Position numbers and translations under genes: made by a program. The notes below the pieces were generated by a model. The model ran no database searches. It was not told where the DNA came from and was given only the letters and a program-made list of their open reading frames with translations. Source: Erythrobacteraceae bacterium Alg239-R51 (GTDB taxonomy: Bacteria; Pseudomonadota; Alphaproteobacteria; Sphingomonadales; Sphingomonadaceae). From it: 64,000 nt of DNA. Position 1 is the first letter of the stretch; every line of letters starts with the position of its first letter. Of this stretch, positions 721 through 44,238 are shown one piece after another. Where the stretch lies: NCBI GenBank assembly GCA_947331495.1, contig CAMZOI010000002.1, positions 1 through 64,000 of the forward strand. The letters run 5' to 3'.

Positions 721-2994
721 ATGTTGAAATCATACTTGCGCCTTCCCCTGCTGCTCCTGCTCTCCCTTGCCGCTTTGGCAACCGGTCTTTCCGGCGCCTT
801 GCGGGGTATCGAAAACGGAGTGCAGAACCTGTCCTTCGCCGCTCGCCAACATGACGCGAGCGGTCAGTTGCATATCGTGGAAATGGATGCGGCTAGCGTC
901 GCTGAAATCGCGCGTTGGCCTTGGGCTCGCAGCCATTATGCAAGGCTAATCGAACGTCTGGATGCAGCCGGCGCGCGGTCCATCACCTTCGATGTCGATT
1001 TCTCGTCGGCGTCCGATCCTACGGAGGACGCAGCCTTGGCTCGCGCCTTGATCAGATCGAAGGCGATTGTGACACTACCAACGTTCGGACAGCATGCCGG
1101 GGCCTCAGGCGACCGACAGCTCGACTCCTTGCCGATCCCCGCATTGCGTGAGCATGTGATACTTGGCTCGGTCTCGGTTCTGCCCGACCGTGATGGCTTC
1201 GTAACTGCCATGCCCTTGGGCACGATTACGGATGGCGTCCCAAGGCCATCTCTCTCGGCACAGATCGCGAAGAGGTCGGGATCAACGGACGCCTTCTTCC
1301 CCATCGATTATAGCGTTGATCCTTCGACTATTCCCCGTCACAGTTTCCGAGCGGTCGAGAGCGGGCGCTTCGATCCCAACGCAATCCGCGGCAGGGACGT
1401 CCTGATCGGAGCGACCGCCATCGAGATGGGCGATCGCTACGCAACACCGAGATACGGTGTGCTACCCGGCGTGGTCGTCCAGGCACTGGCTGGCGAAACC
1501 CTCTATGGCGGCGTACCGAAATTCGGCGGATGGATGCCGGCGCTGCTGCTCGCCGCCTTCCTTGGCTATGTCGTGCTGCGCCTCGAAAACAACGGTGCCG
1601 TTCTCTTCGCTCTGGCGTTGGGTTGGCTTTTGTTGTTCGTCCTTCAATATTACGCATTCGACGTCTGGATGGTCAGCCTCGAGATCGTTCCCGGGATGAT
1701 GCTGGTGTTGCTGGCAGCCTCTGCGCAGATCGCGCTGATGCTTCGCGCAGTGAGCCGGGCCAAGATGCTGGTCGACAGCGAGAGTGGCATGCCCAATCTC
1801 CGCGCCATGGAGTTGCAGGTGGCGCCGAGTAACCGCTTCGTGGTTGCAGGTATGATCGAGGAATTCGATACCATCAGATCGGTCATCGAGGCGACCAATG
1901 TGGGCACGTTCATGAACCGTGTGGTCGAGCGGCTTCACTCGCATGGTCAGGACGCTACGGTCTTCCGGATCGACGACCGCGTGCTGGCTTGGGAAACAGA
2001 AACGGATCATCAAGCCTTACAGGAGCAGCTTGCAAGTCTCAGAAAGGCCTTGCGGAAGCCGATCGAGATCAGTGGACATCGGATAGACGTCGCGATGCGA
2101 TTCGGAATAGCGGAAGCTGGCGGTATTGCCGACGCAGGTCATGCCGCAAGCATAGCCTTGCGTGAAGATCTGCCATGGCACCTCCACAAAAGCGCTGAAC
2201 GCGAAGCGATGGAGCAGCAGATTTCTCTGATGGGTGAGTTGGACGAAGCCATCAGCAAGCGTGAACTGGAGGTTCTTTATCAGCCGAAGCTTGATCTCAG
2301 GTCGAACCTTGTGACCAGCGTCGAAGCACTGATCCGTTGGCATCACCCTATTCGCGGCTATCTGCGGCCCGACAGCTTCATACCCTTGGCGGAACAGACG
2401 GATCGTATTGCCGATCTGACACTGTTCGTGCTCGAACAGACCGTGGCGGATCTGGCGCGATGGTGCGCGAACGGCACCGTATTGAAGGCTGCGGTCAATA
2501 TTTCGGCACGGCTGATCGTGTCGCCGGAATTCATCGCATCAGCCGAACATCTGATTGAACAATCTCGAATACCTCGCGACCGGCTTATCTTCGAAGTGAC
2601 CGAGTCGGCCACCTTGACCGATCCGGAAGCAGCAGTTGCGGCGCTTCATAAATTCAGCCAATTGGGCATCGAGATCTCGATGGACGACTACGGCACGGGC
2701 CAAGCATCGCTTACCTATTTGCGGAACCTCCCGCTCACCGAACTCAAGATCGACCGCAGTTTCGTGCAATATGCTCATATCGACAAGAACGATGCGCTCC
2801 TTGTCCGCTCCACGGTCGAACTGGCGCATTCCTTCGGGTTGCGGGTCGTCGCCGAAGGGGTGGAGGAAGCGGAATGTCTCGCTTTCCTGCGTTCGATTGA
2901 TTGCGACCTTGCCCAAGGGTACTTCATCGGCAAACCGATGCCGGCCGATCAGCTGAACAGTTTTTCTTTCGATCAGCTATCGCGCGCTGCTTAG
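721..2994 (+). CDS. CHASE2 sensor protein with degenerate GGDEF and EAL (c-di-GMP phosphodiesterase) domains
   Basis: A 757-residue membrane signalling protein. An N-terminal hydrophobic segment (about 5-27) precedes a CHASE2-like extracytoplasmic sensor (about 30-265). Three transmembrane helices follow (about 270-345), then a GGDEF-like region whose signature is lost (FRIDDRVLAW where GGDEF is expected). An EAL domain occupies about 505-745. Key EAL residues are kept: EALIRW near 533, the Asn of NISARL, the Glu of EVTES, DDYGTG near 654, Lys in LKIDRSF, AEGVE near 710 and QGYFIGKP. It should therefore be able to hydrolyse cyclic di-GMP in response to an outside signal; activity is inferred. 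The ATG follows a strong GGGGGAGG ribosome site. The preceding acidic repeat gene is a likely partner. Confidence 0.9.
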   Translation: MLKSYLRLPLLLLLSLAALATGLSGALRGIENGVQNLSFAARQHDASGQLHIVEMDAASVAEIARWPWARSHYARLIERLDAAGARSITFDVDFSSASDPTEDAALARALIRSKAIVTLPTFGQHAGASGDRQLDSLPIPALREHVILGSVSVLPDRDGFVTAMPLGTITDGVPRPSLSAQIAKRSGSTDAFFPIDYSVDPSTIPRHSFRAVESGRFDPNAIRGRDVLIGATAIEMGDRYATPRYGVLPGVVVQALAGETLYGGVPKFGGWMPALLLAAFLGYVVLRLENNGAVLFALALGWLLLFVLQYYAFDVWMVSLEIVPGMMLVLLAASAQIALMLRAVSRAKMLVDSESGMPNLRAMELQVAPSNRFVVAGMIEEFDTIRSVIEATNVGTFMNRVVERLHSHGQDATVFRIDDRVLAWETETDHQALQEQLASLRKALRKPIEISGHRIDVAMRFGIAEAGGIADAGHAASIALREDLPWHLHKSAEREAMEQQISLMGELDEAISKRELEVLYQPKLDLRSNLVTSVEALIRWHHPIRGYLRPDSFIPLAEQTDRIADLTLFVLEQTVADLARWCANGTVLKAAVNISARLIVSPEFIASAEHLIEQSRIPRDRLIFEVTESATLTDPEAAVAALHKFSQLGIEISMDDYGTGQASLTYLRNLPLTELKIDRSFVQYAHIDKNDALLVRSTVELAHSFGLRVVAEGVEEAECLAFLRSIDCDLAQGYFIGKPMPADQLNSFSFDQLSRAA

Positions 2995-3261
2995 AGTTTA
3001 CTAGTATGGCATTAGCCTTCTCGACACTTTCAATAGGCCCAACCCAACGCACCGCGATCTCGAAACTTCTCTGGCGTTTCGAGAGTTGGGTCTGTTTCTC
3101 TGCGAAGCAATGCCGACAAAGCGTCTTGCAATTGATTTGGGCACTACAGCGCGCGCTGCTCCGGTAAAATCAGTTATGGAGAAGCTAGCAGAAAGAATAC
3201 GGAACGTAATTTTTGACCTCATGTCCTGATTATATCGGCGAAGAGACTGCTACACGGTTAG

Positions 3262-4001
3262 AACCAACTTCCGTTTTTCCATCAAGATGTAGGAACGAGA
3301 CGCTACCATTATTATGAAACGCGGCGCGATCTGGACAAGTCAAGCGAGCCAGCCAGCACCAGATATTCGATGGCATCGCTCGACCGCCATGTGATCCTTG
3401 AACTTCGCGCCCTGCTTGCAGATGAACATCGGCTTCGGCGCTTATCCAGCAGAGAAGACGGTGCGGTACTCGAGAAGCTCCTTGCAAACGCAGCCACTAT
3501 GAGCGCCAAGCTGGGTGAACGCGCAGAGCAGAGAATCGCACTGGTTGAACTGCTGGCCGAGATCGGAATTGCGAAAGTCACATCGAGCTTCTGATAAAGA
3601 CTGATGTGCTCACTGGACCTGGCGATGACGATCTGTGGCGCTACAAAATCGAGCTACCAACTCGCAAGCCGTTTCGCGACTCGAAGCTCTGCATCGATGC
3701 AGGCAATGCAAATAAACCGGAGCCCGATCGATCCATGACCCGCCTGCTTCGAGAGGCGAGGCGCGCATGCGAATTGGTTCTTGCCACATCCGAGACATCG
3801 TTACGCGAAATCGCCAGGCGCGAAGGACGATGCAGGAAGAACCTCACACAGCTCGTCAAACTCGGATGGATCAGTCCGCGCATCGTAGAAGCGATCTTGG
3901 ATGGCGCGCAGCCCGGGCATCTAAACACAAGAGTCCTGCTCTCAGGAAATCTGCCATTGAGCTGGCGCGAGCAAGAAACGATGGTTGGCCTGCGCGTCTG
4001 A
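3262..4001 (+). pseudogene. Serine recombinase (resolvase/invertase family) remnant, C-terminal part, frameshifted
   Basis: Two overlapping frames together read like the end of a large serine recombinase. The first (3262-3594) has RRYHYYETRRDL, resembling the RRYRYYVS-type motif after the zinc ribbon, then a helical stretch ending in a stop. The second (about 3585-4001) continues with ELLIKTDVL and a C-terminal domain containing SLREIARREG, LTQLVKLGWISPRIVEAILDG and LPLSWREQ, close to the usual tail of these proteins. One frameshift near 3570-3590 joins them. The catalytic N-terminal serine domain is missing; upstream bases 2995-3260 are AT-rich (two 60-base lines counted at 42-52% G+C) and show no gene. 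A probable leftover of an integrated element beside a tRNA gene. Similarity was judged by eye. Confidence 0.65.
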
Positions 4002-39467: not shown

Positions 39468-40535
39468 TCAGCCGCATTGGGCCCGGTGGAGCAGTTTGTG
39501 ATCCGCCAGGACCAGCGCCATCATTGCCTCGACCACAGGCGTCCCGCGAATGCCGACGCACGGATCGTGACGGCCCTTCGTGCGCACCTGGGTGGCTTTC
39601 CCGTCGCGGGTAATGCTTTCCACCGGGGTCAGGATCGAACTGGTGGGCTTGAAGGCCACGCGGCAGGCGACCGGCTGGCCGGTCGAGATGCCGCCTGCAA
39701 TGCCGCCCGCATGATTGGCGGCGAATTCTGGACCGTCTGGACCCGGTGACATTGCATCGGCGTTCTGTTCGCCCGTCAGCCGTGCGGCGTCGAAGCCGTC
39801 GCCGATCTCGACGCCCTTGACCGCATTGATGCTCATCATGCCTGCCGCCAGATCGCTGTCGAGCTTGGCATAGATCGGCGCGCCCCACCCGGCTGGAACG
39901 CCGCTGGCCACGCATTCGACCACCGCGCCGAGCGAGGAACCGGCCTTGCGCGCATTGTCGATCAGGCCCTCCCAGCGCTCCGCAGCCTCTGCGTCGGGGC
40001 ACCAGAAAGGATTGCGGCCGATTTCCTCCGGGTCGAAATTGGCCGGGTCCGCCTTGTCGCCGCCGATTTCGGCGACATAGCCGAGGATGCTCGCTTCGGG
40101 GATGATCAGCCGCGCCACCGCGCCCGCCGCCACGCGCATCGCCGTCTCGCGCGCCGAGCTACGCCCGCCGCCGCGATAATCGCGAAAACCGTATTTCGCG
40201 TCATAGGCATAATCGGCATGGCCGGGGCGATAGGTATTGGCGATCTCGGAGTAATCCTTGGAGCGCTGGTCGGTGTTCTCGATCAAGAGCGAAATCGGCG
40301 TGCCGGTCGTCCTGCCCTCGAACACGCCGGACAGGATGCGCACCGCATCGGGTTCCTTGCGCTGCGTGGTGAACTTGTTCTGCCCCGGCTTGCGCGCGTC
40401 GAGGAAGGGCTGGATGTCGTTTTCCGCCAGTTCGAGCCCGGGCGGGCACCCGTCGACCACCGCGCCAATGGCTGCGCCGTGGCTCTCGCCCCAGGTGGTG
40501 AAGCGCAGCACGCGCCCGAAGGTGTTCCAGCTCAT
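39468..40535 (-). CDS. aroC: Chorismate synthase
   Basis: 355-residue FMN-dependent enzyme that makes chorismate from EPSP, the last shared step of aromatic synthesis. Signature segments: [18 protein letters not shown] near residue 15, [29 protein letters not shown] near 105, and [13 protein letters not shown] followed by [27 protein letters not shown] at the end. Length is standard. It is divergent from ruvA, 80 bases away. Confidence 0.97.
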
Positions 40536-40615
40536 GGCTGCGCTTCATGCCCGCAATTGTGGGCGCAAGTCCATTGCGACTGGACCAAAACTGTCTTGTG
40601 GCCCAAGAACAAATC

Positions 40616-41227
40616 ATGATTGCGAAGCTTAAGGGCCTGCTCGACGAAACCGGTTCCGACTGGGCGGTGATCGATGTCGCGGGCGTCGGCTACCTCGTCC
40701 ATTGTTCGTCGAAGACTCTCGCCGCCCTGGGCGATGCAGGCGAAGCGTGCACGGTCTATACCGATCTACAGGTTTCGGAAAACGACATGCGCCTGCTCGG
40801 GTTCGCCGAGGCGGCGGAGCGCGACTGGTTCCGCCTGCTTACGCAGGTGCAGGGGGTGGGCAGCAAGGTCGCGCTTGCAATCCTGTCCGCGCTCTCCACC
40901 GGCGAAGTGCAGCAAGCCTGCGCGAACGGCGATGCGGCAACGGTCGCCCGAGCCCAGGGCGTCGGACCGAAGCTGGCGAGCCGGATCGTCAACGAGTTGA
41001 AGGAAAAGGCGGGCGCACTGCCCGGCAGCGGATATTCCGGGGACAGTGTCACAAGTGTCAACACCCCCGCCGGAAAAACCAGCGCCGATGCGGTTAGCGC
41101 GCTCGAAAACCTCGGTTTCAAATCCGCCGTGGCCGCGCGCGCAGTGGCGACGGCGCAGGGCGAACTGGGAGACGGCGCGAGCGAGGGCGAACTGATCCGG
41201 GTGGCATTGAAGAGGGCGGCGGGGTGA
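40616..41227 (+). CDS. ruvA: Holliday junction branch migration protein RuvA
   Basis: 203 residues starting MIAKLKGLLDE, the family start; the frame is open upstream without conservation. Domain I beta-barrel (about 1-62), domain II helix-hairpin-helix pair (GVGSKVALAILSALS and GVGPKLASRIVNELK, about 72-130), a linker, and domain III (about 152-203; DAVSALENLGFKSAVAARAVATA). It binds four-way junctions as tetramers and loads RuvB. Its TGA overlaps the start of an inserted GIY-YIG-like gene rather than ruvB. Confidence 0.97.
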   Translation: MIAKLKGLLDETGSDWAVIDVAGVGYLVHCSSKTLAALGDAGEACTVYTDLQVSENDMRLLGFAEAAERDWFRLLTQVQGVGSKVALAILSALSTGEVQQACANGDAATVARAQGVGPKLASRIVNELKEKAGALPGSGYSGDSVTSVNTPAGKTSADAVSALENLGFKSAVAARAVATAQGELGDGASEGELIRVALKRAAG

Positions 41228-41793
41228 TGTCGAGTTACGAAGACGAGGGCCATTTTTTCGAGACTTTTGGCCCTTTCCTCATTCCATTAACAGATGGCCG
41301 AGTCAGTCGGCCACCCGCAAAATGGTGGGACGAAATAGTCGATCAAAATCACGACGTTTCACGTGCAATTGGTTGTTATATGTTCGTGATGGGCAATGCC
41401 AACATCAAGCCCTGGTACGTGGGCAAAACTGTTAACTCAGCTGGGTTTCGCGAAGAAGTTTTCACGGAGCATAAATGCGATCATTACAATTGGGTGCTTG
41501 AAGAAGGATACAGAGGCCCAGCTCAACTATACTTATTTCCTAAAATAACGCGGCCATTTGATCAGGAATGGCGCTTTTCGCGCGGACATTCGAACAGCGG
41601 CTCTATTGAATGGCTAGAGCGTACGTTGATGGGCATGGCTTTTTCTCAAAATCCAGAGATAGCGAATAGTCGGGATTTGACCTATTTTCGAACTGTACAT
41701 GTCCGTGGGATTCTAGGTCGCGCACCTAAAGGCAAGAGGACGGGCCACATCGCGAAAGCGCGTCATGCCTTGCTCGGTGAGAAGCCACATTGA
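41227..41793 (+). CDS. GIY-YIG-like putative nuclease gene between ruvA and ruvB
   Basis: 188 residues of unknown family. Residues 49-51 read GCY and 64-67 YVGK, 12 residues apart, followed by Arg75 and His82 in [10 protein letters not shown]. Glu128/Glu131 in SIEWLERTL and Asn147 in NPEIANSRD complete the spacing of a GIY-YIG nuclease core (catalytic Tyr, Arg, metal Glu, Asn). The N-terminal 45 residues and a basic C-terminal tail are extra. Two 60-base lines inside it count 45% and 48% G+C, against 72% in a ruvB line, so it is probably acquired. A GTG three bases earlier (41224) could also start it. Both ends overlap neighbours as TGATG. Fold assignment is by eye. Confidence 0.72.
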
Positions 41794-42818
41794 TGACCGA
41801 ACCCGTCCCCCTCCACGCGCCTGATCGGCAGCCGGAAGATCCGGATGCGGCGCTACGGCCTAAGAGCCTCTCCGAGTTTGTTGGGCAGAAGGCTGCGCGC
41901 GAGAATTTGCGCGTGTTCATCGAGGCAGCCAAGGGCCGCGGCGAGGCGATGGACCATGTATTGTTCTTCGGCCCGCCCGGCCTTGGCAAGACCACGCTGG
42001 CGCAGATCGTCGCGCGCGAGCTTGGCGTGGGGTTTCGCGCCACCTCAGGCCCGGTCATCGCCAAGGCGGGCGATCTTGCCGCACTGCTGACCAATCTCGA
42101 ACCCAACGACGTGCTCTTCATCGACGAGATCCACCGGCTTAATCCGGTGGTCGAGGAAGTGCTCTACCCGGCGATGGAGGACCGCGCGCTCGACATCATC
42201 ATAGGCGAGGGACCCTCGGCGAGGAGCGTCAGGATCGATCTGCCTCCTTTTACCCTCGTTGGCGCGACCACGCGGCAGGGCCTGCTGACCACGCCGCTGC
42301 GCGATCGCTTCGGCATCCCCGTGCGGCTCAATTTCTACACCGAGGATGAATTGCTGCGGGTGGTGACGCGCGGAGCGGGACTCCTCGACATGGGTATCGA
42401 CGAGGGCGGGGCGCGTGAAATCGCCCGGCGTTCGCGCGGGACGCCGCGTGTCGCAGGCCGGCTGATGCGCCGGGTGCGCGATTTCGCCAGCGTGCTGGGC
42501 GAGCCGACTGTCACCACCAGGGTCGCCGACGAGGCGCTGACCCGGCTCGAAGTCGATTCGCTCGGCCTCGACGCGATGGACCGGCGCTATCTCACCATGA
42601 TCGCGACCACCTACAAGGGCGGGCCGGTGGGGGTGGAAACGCTCGCGGCGGGACTGTCCGAACCGCGCGACACGGTGGAAGAGGTGATCGAGCCTTATCT
42701 CATCCAGCTTGGCCTGATCGCCCGTACCGCGCGCGGACGGTGCCTGAATGATGGCGGCTGGGTCCATCTCGGCCTTCCGCAATCTGGCAAGCCGCAGACA
42801 GATATGTTCGACAAGTAA
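41793..42818 (+). CDS. ruvB: Holliday junction branch migration DNA helicase RuvB
   Basis: 341-residue AAA+ motor. Walker [13 protein letters not shown] near residue 61, Walker B FIDEIHRL near 109, sensor 1 [21 protein letters not shown] near 155 with the arginine finger, sensor 2 [16 protein letters not shown] near 212, and the C-terminal winged helix ([23 protein letters not shown]). It drives branch migration with RuvA. The ATG at 41793 shares one base with the stop of the inserted gene. Confidence 0.97.
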
Positions 42819-43035
42819 GGTCTTGTTGCGCGTGTAGCCTCGCCGGGAACGGTCCCGCAACGGGACGTGTCGATTGGAACTCTCGCTTTTGTGCTGGAAG
42901 TCGCCTTCCTTCATGCCGATACGGAAATGAATCGTATGCGATTCCATCGGAAAGGGTTCGCAGAAGAAATAACGGATGTTTTGGGACAGCGGATTGCCGC
43001 CTTTCCTTAGGGGTTCGGAACAGGAATTCGAAGCA

Positions 43036-44238
43036 ATGTCAGTCAAATCAGCCTTAGCCAAATTATCGGCCACCGCGGCAGGCGGTGCGTTGCTGGCGGG
43101 CGGTGCGGTTCACGTTGCCGAGAAACCGATTACCGACAATCCGCAGTACAAGACGAAACAGGTCAAGGCGGTCAAGCAGGTCAAGGCGCAGCCGCGCGCC
43201 ATACCGAGCCGCCCGGTCCAGCGCGCGCGCAGCATTCCGCGCCAGATCGAATGCGTTCCTGCCGAATCGCCGGCTGCGATCAACAATCCGAACAATATCT
43301 GTCCGCCTGTTTACCGCCAGGCGATGGCGCCCGTTCCCGTACCGCCCTTGCCGCAGGCCGCTCCGGTCGTCGCCGGCGGCGCGACGCGATCCATTCCGGC
43401 TCCCAGCTATGGTGGGGGCGGCGGTTTTGGTGGCGGCTTCGGCGGTGGGTTCTTCGGTGGATTTTTCAGCGGGTCGGGCGGCGGCGGCAGCGTCGTGGTG
43501 AATTCGACGACCACCACGGGCGGCACCGTGCCCGATATCGACATCGACGTATCGACCTCCACTTCCAGCGGCGGAACTTCGACATCGACGTCGACCGGCG
43601 GCAGTTCGACATCCAGTTCGACCGGTGAAGTCTCGACCACCACGGGGGGGAGTTCCAGCTCGACTTCCACGGGCGAGGTTTCGACCAGCACATCGTCCTC
43701 GTCGAGCACCGGTTCGGTTTCAACGTCCACGGGCACGGTTTCGACATCTACGGGGGGCGTCTCGACATCTACCGGTGGCGTATCGACCTCCACCGGTTCG
43801 GTTTCCAGTTCAACGGGCCAAGTCAGCACCACGACGACCAGCTCATCCTCGGGCGACGTGTCGTCGTCGACGGGATCGGTGACCAGCACCAGTTCATCCT
43901 CGGGCGACGTCTCGTCTTCCTCCTCGACATCGGGCGATGTCTCGAGTTCGACATCGACTTCGACCTCTGGTGACGTCTCGAGTTCGACATCGACATCGGG
44001 TGACGTTTCCACAAGCACGTCGACCTCGGGCAACGTGACGTCGAGCACCAGCTCCTCGTCCTCGACCAGCACGTCCTCTTCGACCAGCACGTCCAGCTCG
44101 ACTTCCTCGAGCACGTCGTCAAGTTCGGGAAGCAGCAGCGGCACCGAAGTTCCTGCACCGCCGATGATGGCATTGTTCGGCCTGGCCGCCGCCGCGGTCC
44201 TGGGCCGTCGCAAGTTCCGAATTAAACGCGGCGCCTAA
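43036..44238 (+). CDS. Ser/Thr-rich secreted protein with PEP-CTERM-like sorting tail
   Basis: 400 residues. An N-terminal export-type helix (about 6-26) is followed by a basic/Pro segment, a Gly-rich stretch (about 128-155), and about 210 residues made almost only of Ser and Thr with Gly-Asp-Val and Gly-Gly-Val interruptions in short repeats. The end, VPAPPMMALFGLAAAAVLGRR, has the shape of a PEP-CTERM / exosortase sorting signal: VPxPP, one hydrophobic helix, basic end. The Ser/Thr region could be a glycosylated stalk. The function is unknown and the closest family was not identified. An AGGA lies about 10 bases before the ATG. Confidence 0.8.
   Translation: MSVKSALAKLSATAAGGALLAGGAVHVAEKPITDNPQYKTKQVKAVKQVKAQPRAIPSRPVQRARSIPRQIECVPAESPAAINNPNNICPPVYRQAMAPVPVPPLPQAAPVVAGGATRSIPAPSYGGGGGFGGGFGGGFFGGFFSGSGGGGSVVVNSTTTTGGTVPDIDIDVSTSTSSGGTSTSTSTGGSSTSSSTGEVSTTTGGSSSSTSTGEVSTSTSSSSSTGSVSTSTGTVSTSTGGVSTSTGGVSTSTGSVSSSTGQVSTTTTSSSSGDVSSSTGSVTSTSSSSGDVSSSSSTSGDVSSSTSTSTSGDVSSSTSTSGDVSTSTSTSGNVTSSTSSSSSTSTSSSTSTSSSTSSSTSSSSGSSSGTEVPAPPMMALFGLAAAAVLGRRKFRIKRGA

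Follow-up and report, generated by a model that had tools for sequence, protein, structure and literature searches.

Our analysis of a 64,000-nucleotide stretch of DNA from Erythrobacteraceae bacterium Alg239-R51 (the whole stretch is called the window below) showed that a gene for a 188-residue, predicted GIY-YIG-like protein lies exactly between ruvA and ruvB, and that in the GTDB family of this organism the ruvA-ruvB junction is an accessory-gene slot, peculiar to it among the families measured. We read the gene as horizontally acquired, mobile GIY-YIG-like nuclease cargo in this permissive slot, which most likely acts on mobile-element DNA and is not a part of RuvAB, and we give this reading a probability of about 0.53.

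The gene between ruvA and ruvB

The first-pass annotation had placed an AT-rich gene between ruvA and ruvB, and the ORF coordinates together with the RuvA and RuvB matches bear this position out (Table 1). Directly 5' of the gene, ruvA matched the Pfam families RuvA_N (1.7e-19) and RuvA_C (7.9e-9), and the window RuvB is 89-95% identical to the RuvB of 17 congeners. The ORF of the inserted gene is intact, its stop and start codons overlap with those of its neighbours at both borders, and the insertion leaves the two conserved genes unbroken, as it does in two further carriers, G153 and G961. The gene would be read from the ruvAB message, and translation coupled through the overlapping stops and starts would keep RuvB made.

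Table 1. Features of the ruvA-ruvB region, in window coordinates
Feature	Coordinates	Strand	Basis
GIY-YIG-like gene, 188 aa (ATG 41227, TGA 41791-41793)	41227..41793	+	ORF, family alignments, model
ruvA, upstream flank	40616..41227	+	RuvA_N, HHH_5, RuvA_C matches
ruvB, downstream flank	41793..42818	+	identity to congener RuvB; flank comparison
TGATG shared by ruvA stop and gene start	41225..41229	+	sequence
TGATG shared by gene stop and ruvB start	41791..41795	+	sequence
Codons 49-51, GCY, variant GIY half-motif	41371..41379	+	22-member alignment
Codons 64-67, YVGK, YIG half-motif	41416..41427	+	22-member alignment
Codon 131, conserved Glu (candidate metal ligand)	41617..41619	+	21/22
Codon 142, conserved Asn	41650..41652	+	21/22

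The 5-base TGATG at both borders is visible by eye; a repeat scan, which covered direct and inverted words of at least 8 bases within 60 bases of the two borders, found none. An intron was rejected, since no Rfam intron was found in 40500-42900, and a promoter and terminator scan of 40500-42000 was uninformative. We also scanned for GTTC-N7-GTTC, which we take to be the alphaproteobacterial LexA box. The best such site in the window has one mismatch and lies about 200 bases upstream of ruvA, an exact box stands between ruvC and ruvA in G961 (L059:733-747), and upstream of ruvA at other loci an exact box was seen at 5/67 and a box with at most one mismatch at 25/67; none of this is counted as evidence for any reading. 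Downstream of ruvB, positions 42976-44238 encode a Ser/Thr/Gly-rich low-complexity protein with a C-terminal hydrophobic tail, presumably of the sorting-signal type.

A GIY-YIG-like family without a name

The window protein gave no match to Pfam, PHROGs, NCBIfam or PADLOC even at E 10. A scan of GTDB contigs with this single protein found no relative and a profile search did; two candidates, L034 and L035, were dropped as relatives, as they match a phage protein with a shared PFDQEWRF stretch. Family alignments were built with 20 members and then with 22. None of the 20 scored better than E 0.02 against Pfam, NCBIfam or PHROGs, none carries a DNA-binding module recognised by Pfam, and PF01541 was matched neither by the window protein at E <= 10 nor by any of the 20 at E <= 1. 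By sequence, the family profile matched no PDB chain (best E 0.14), and PADLOC models gave no convincing match among the 22 members (best E 0.039, for one member). No published report of this protein family or of a ruvA-ruvB slot was found in PMC titles and the starts of abstracts, for several topics among the best matches only (e.g. the best 15 of 129). As far as the libraries searched go, the protein family is undescribed, as the first-pass annotation supposed of the system; the kind of element is not, lone GIY-YIG-type nucleases being known as mobile cargo.

In the 22-member alignment, GIY-like and YIG-like half-motifs are separated by about 10 residues and fall on two strands of the model described below: G49, Y64, V/I65 and G66 are found in 22/22 members and Y51 in 21/22, and position 50 is Cys in 16 and Ile in 3 of the 22. 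A conserved Glu and Asn follow in the C-terminal part (E131 and N142, Table 1; N147 in 20/22), and further conserved columns are E77 (20), K83 (19) and G161 (22 of 22). Position 75 is R in 6 members, K in 7 and another residue in 9, so that the canonical Arg after YIG is not conserved. All the residues singled out at first pass (GCY 49-51, YVGK 64-67, R75, H82, E128/E131 and N147) are at the positions claimed, and conservation was found for Y51, Y64, E131 and N147 but not for R75 or E128, with H82 being His in 15/22. PMC1564403 gives GIY, YIG, a central Arg and a C-terminal Glu as the marks of the GIY-YIG superfamily, and according to PMC2630997 the Arg of the Hpy188I family is not strictly conserved and may have shifted its position.

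An AlphaFold2 model built from 14 sequences (mean pLDDT 86, pTM 0.86) has strands at 49-55 and 61-67, helices at 74-77 and 81-92, a strand at 99-108 and a helix at 124-141 that carries E131. The structure prediction recommended in the first-pass annotation gave a divided answer. When the model was compared with the PDB by Foldseek, ranks 1-7 and 9 were all GIY-YIG enzymes (UvrC N-domain, T4 EndoII, Hpy188I), but the matches are weak, the best of them (UvrC N-domain) having E 0.077 and probability 0.38, with none at E 0.001, and ranks 8, 10 and 11 are proteins unrelated to GIY-YIG. Against BFVD the first match has no name, and the named ones, also weak, include EndoII and several GIY-YIG proteins.

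Compared with the GIY-YIG superfamily (UvrC N-domain, I-TevI, T4 EndoII, Hpy188I, Eco29kI), the window family thus has in common the half-motifs on neighbouring strands, a later Glu helix and an Asn, but lacks the conserved Arg after YIG and a PF01541 match, and has an N-terminal G-P-F and C-terminal G161/G169 of its own. Because the canonical Arg is not conserved and the fold matches are weak, GIY-YIG-like is the safe name for what alignment and model suggest, and we do not claim strict membership; the GIY-YIG-like core proposed at first pass is supported by the half-motifs, the Glu and Asn and, weakly, by the model's PDB ranks. The gene would encode a single-domain, GIY-YIG-like putative endonuclease, for which catalysis is not assured, given the lack of a PDB sequence match, the weak Foldseek matches and the Arg that is not conserved. 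The same Arg and the same weak matches would suit a decaying or catalytically dead passenger, but the ORF is intact and the two Tyr, the Glu and the Asn are kept in 20-22 of 22 members across several phyla, and we regard a dead passenger as the least likely of the readings weighed here.

PD-T4-3 is a single-gene system. The window family likewise consists of a lone GIY-YIG-type protein, and the PD-T4-3 structure 9u75 appears at Foldseek rank 20 with a very weak E of 0.62, but the window family is absent from PADLOC models. PMC10952713 lists PD-T4-3 as a defence system with a GIY-YIG domain.

Sporadic distribution and neighbours of relatives

Comparing ruvAB loci in related genomes for presence or absence of the gene, as proposed at first pass, showed that it is sporadic and absent from all congeners drawn. 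A search with the window protein matched 2/147 genomes (its own and one distant). Profile searches matched 4/396 genomes in the order, 4/385 in the class and 5/397 in the family, 1/121 in the genus of G153 (g58), 1/7 in that of G961 (g395) and 2/227 among G961 relatives; these draws overlap, include the carriers and are all samples except the 1/7 draw. In no draw did another genome of the window's genus match. Members within the window's GTDB family number seven (G000, which is the window's own genome, G153, G961, G371, G1017, G867 and L048), 3/7 being in the ruvA-ruvB slot; G867 is the plasmid gene again (see below), and NCBI labels L048 as a Sphingomonas MAG contig.

The relatives as a whole are scattered. 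Alphaproteobacteria, other phyla, one plasmid and IMG/VR contigs are the sources of the 22 that were aligned, and the GTDB contigs among the relatives carry the labels Shinella, Komagataeibacter, Acidobacterium, Singulisphaera, Desulfovibrio and others. A search of 72,556 plasmid records gave one match, a Polymorphobacter megasporae plasmid (37%), and 50,697 phage records gave none with four different queries.

On IMG/VR contigs, relatives stand beside terminase (L033), head-morphogenesis (L054), tape-measure (L055) and portal/scaffold genes (L156, L157), the neighbours of the first three and of L156 being named by PHROGs and those of L157 read from its like arrangement. All of the viral-contig relatives (5/5) are antisense to the adjacent late structural genes, a placement like that of moron or segD-type genes. 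The putative phage link of the family rests on these five metagenomic or predicted viral contigs. A defence-gene scan, which covered 10 hand-picked neighbourhoods, located the Shinella relative (L044) near DarT/DarG and an integrase, the Polymorphobacter plasmid relative (L036) near a PDC-M65B match, and the relatives of L051 and L045 near a mad3-like match and an integrase, respectively. At the same time, several relatives adjoin core genes, with miaB, rodA, aroC and others named by reading. For example, the relative at L048:971-1513 has 51.8% G+C, overlaps a miaB-like gene of 72% G+C at the end of the latter and precedes a phoH-like gene; with gene names assigned by reading, L048 is a second putative instance of a core operon being entered.

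The ruvA-ruvB junction as an accessory-gene slot

In G153 and G961 the order is ruvC-ruvA-gene-ruvB, the gene being of the same GIY-YIG-like family and in the same orientation. The borders differ: the window has TGATG on both sides, while in G153 the gene is bordered by a 14-base spacer and ATGA, and in G961 by GTGA and an 8-base spacer.

We surveyed ruvA-ruvB junctions at loci L003-L020, L040 and L061-L120. Within the family, 79 loci were considered, from 18 genomes of the window's genus (its own included), 60 hand-picked genomes, mainly one per genus from the listed matches, and G153; at two of them (L012, L118) ruvA was beyond reach and the gap unmeasured. The gap exceeds 300 bp at 60 of the 77 measured loci, is 101-300 bp at 3 and at most 100 bp at 14, and in the window's genus 20/20 gaps exceed 300 bp. 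The 39 loci from other alphaproteobacterial families (11 from the RuvB comparison that gave the congeners and the 28 best RuvB matches of another draw) gave 37 measurable gaps, all of -7 to 64 bp and hence 0/37 above 300 bp. Fisher's test for 60/77 against 0/37 gives p 3.7e-17, uncorrected for relatedness. Of the two remaining loci from the other families, L149 stops 234 bp short of ruvB, and in L026 no ruvA was detectable in the 1.5 kb upstream of ruvB, which makes L026 a possible exception to the closed junction outside the family. The premise of the first-pass annotation that ruvA and ruvB are normally adjacent thus fits the class outside the family (37/37 measurable loci) but not the inside of it (60/77 above 300 bp).

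Cargo was typed by tblastn in 65 slots of at least 100 bp (L012 and L059 added), with Pfam names taken from one representative each. The slots hold DsrE-like proteins (32), PF01541-type GIY-YIG proteins (16), GFA (6), ParE (4), the GIY-YIG-like family of the window gene (3) and ABM (2), and 11 hold none of the types sought. A group recognised by eye as membrane proteins accounts for 6 slots, and two further kinds of small membrane protein account for 6 and 2; among the former 6, the one in L016 came to light only when its own minus-strand ORF was used.

In the window's genus the slot is usually occupied by a DsrE-like protein that has an apparent signal peptide (17/21), and the window's slot lacks it; DsrE-like loci are L004-L015, L017, L018, L061-L063 and others. 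ParE-type toxin matches occur in the slots of L094, L099, L110 and L113, and a similar small gene adjoins in L110 and L113. The second GIY-YIG type, PF01541, is unrelated to the window family and fills 16/65 slots (L005, L007, L008, L013, L017, L018, L067, L069, L070, L072, L082, L085, L086, L089, L095 and L107), several of these genes having reading frames with HPELVSGS/LNLFQHP-type repeats beside them. We take these PF01541-type proteins to be UPF0213-like. They too are GIY-YIG-type proteins between ruvA and ruvB, in other genomes, but one representative matches PF01541 at 4.3e-14, 15/16 are on the minus strand, and they are not alignable with the window family (hhalign E 0.34, showing no kinship between the two). 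Within the 64-kb window itself, neither a DsrE-like or PF01541-type slot gene nor an HPELVSG-type repeat word is present.

These results bear on the suggestion, made at first pass, that the protein is an adopted partner of RuvAB that nicks or resolves branched DNA. Slx1 is structure-specific. Sharing an apparent message with ruvA and ruvB, with stop/start overlaps on both sides, would be consistent with such a partner, as would the presence of the same clade in the operon in three genera and the inclusion of the Slx family in the superfamily (PMC1564403). But the carriers are one genome in each of the three genera, no congener matched, conservation of the gene with ruvAB across relatives was not found in the genome draws, the stretches read around relatives outside the slot revealed no link to ruvAB, and many unrelated genes occupy the slot. 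Moreover, RuvC is present in 20/20 genomes tested, including all three carriers, so there is no resolvase gap to fill and replacement of RuvC by the 188-residue protein is ruled out. The suggestion is not supported, and we consider it improbable, only a dead passenger ranking lower.

Base composition and origin of the gene

The low G+C noted at first pass was confirmed: the gene has 48.3% against 65.8% in ruvA, 66.1% in ruvB and 62.2% in the whole window, and of 6344 windows of 567 bp taken in 10-base steps none was as low (0/6344; lowest 48.5%). Only at 2741-3557 does the window again come within 3 points of this value. In the three slot carriers (window, G153, G961) the gene has 48.3, 45.8 and 48.0% G+C against 66.1, 69.9 and 70.1% in ruvB.

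The three slot members form one clade (support 92/88, just under the star threshold of the tool), which could suggest an ancient slot occupant, vertically inherited and lost in most lineages. A host-like grouping of G153 with G961 was not rejected (AU p 0.29, with three slot rows only), and the window-G961 identity of 49% for the 188-residue protein is not far below the 56% of RuvA. However, the gene is AT-rich in all three GC-rich hosts, many losses would be required, and the nearest pairs differ, being G153-G961 for RuvB (87%) and window-G961 for the 188-residue protein (49%). Because of the foreign composition and the sporadic presence, separate acquisitions are favoured over a single old origin with losses, and we find the ancient occupant improbable.

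Right up to the insert, ruvA and ruvB have a native look. Over the 500-600 block, at the 3' end of ruvA, identity of the window sequence is 0.72-0.85 to congeners against 0.60 and 0.64 to the other two carriers, and in the first 100 bases of ruvB the values are 0.63-0.86 against 0.66 and 0.68, congener L020 (0.63) being here as distant from the window as the two carriers are. Since the window's ruvA and ruvB ends are congener-like, there is no trace of flanks from G153 or G961, and flank exchange with them is ruled out. Nor was a donor-like co-conversion tract seen at ruvAB when the flanks were compared with congeners and G153/G961, a comparison in which an old or close donor would leave no sign.

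The most interesting rival reading is a free-standing homing endonuclease, which would cut ruvA, ruvB or the junction in empty genomes and be copied in by repair. One clade in the same junction in three genera, each time in the orientation of its neighbours, is what homing would produce, and the T4 GIY-YIG seg genes are likewise lone genes between conserved genes, several of which cut a neighbour (PMC2988022). The antisense position of the viral-contig relatives among late genes also recalls segD as described there. In contrast to the seg genes, however, the window family has no recognised DNA-binding module (20 members, Pfam) and no co-conversion tract at ruvAB, where the flanks stay congener-like up to the insert; the Rfam search for an intron was negative, and a slot that takes many unrelated genes makes targeting unnecessary. 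We judge homing unlikely, though it ranks first among the alternatives. Next below it comes the possibility, also unlikely in our view, that the slot members are a new GIY-YIG-like clade adapted to the ruvA-ruvB junction, which enters repeatedly by cutting the junction or its flanks and rides the repair operon; if so, a nuclease would be produced along with the very branch-migration motor by which its cuts would be repaired.

Probable mobile cargo in a repair operon

Mobile nuclease cargo, acquired horizontally into an operon-internal slot of this GTDB family, remains our preferred reading. The first-pass annotation had offered a mobile nuclease that entered the operon, and the horizontal origin is supported by base composition, sporadic distribution and relatives on a plasmid, on IMG/VR contigs and near defence genes; the nuclease part is GIY-YIG-like only. 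The cargo would most likely act on mobile-element DNA, perhaps in defence or in competition between elements. Against this reading stand the 0/50,697 phage records, the single match in 72,556 plasmid records, the want of a convincing PADLOC match and the core-gene neighbours of several relatives, as well as the window gene's own neighbours, which are ruvA and ruvB.

The analysis adds to the GIY-YIG-like proteins a family without a name, with a predicted altered active site, that occurs in several phyla and on virus-derived contigs. Of the new facts, the slot is the most useful: the junction of a core repair operon can serve as an accessory-gene slot in one family and be closed in the others measured. 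How an operon takes up foreign genes and stays intact thereby becomes a testable question.
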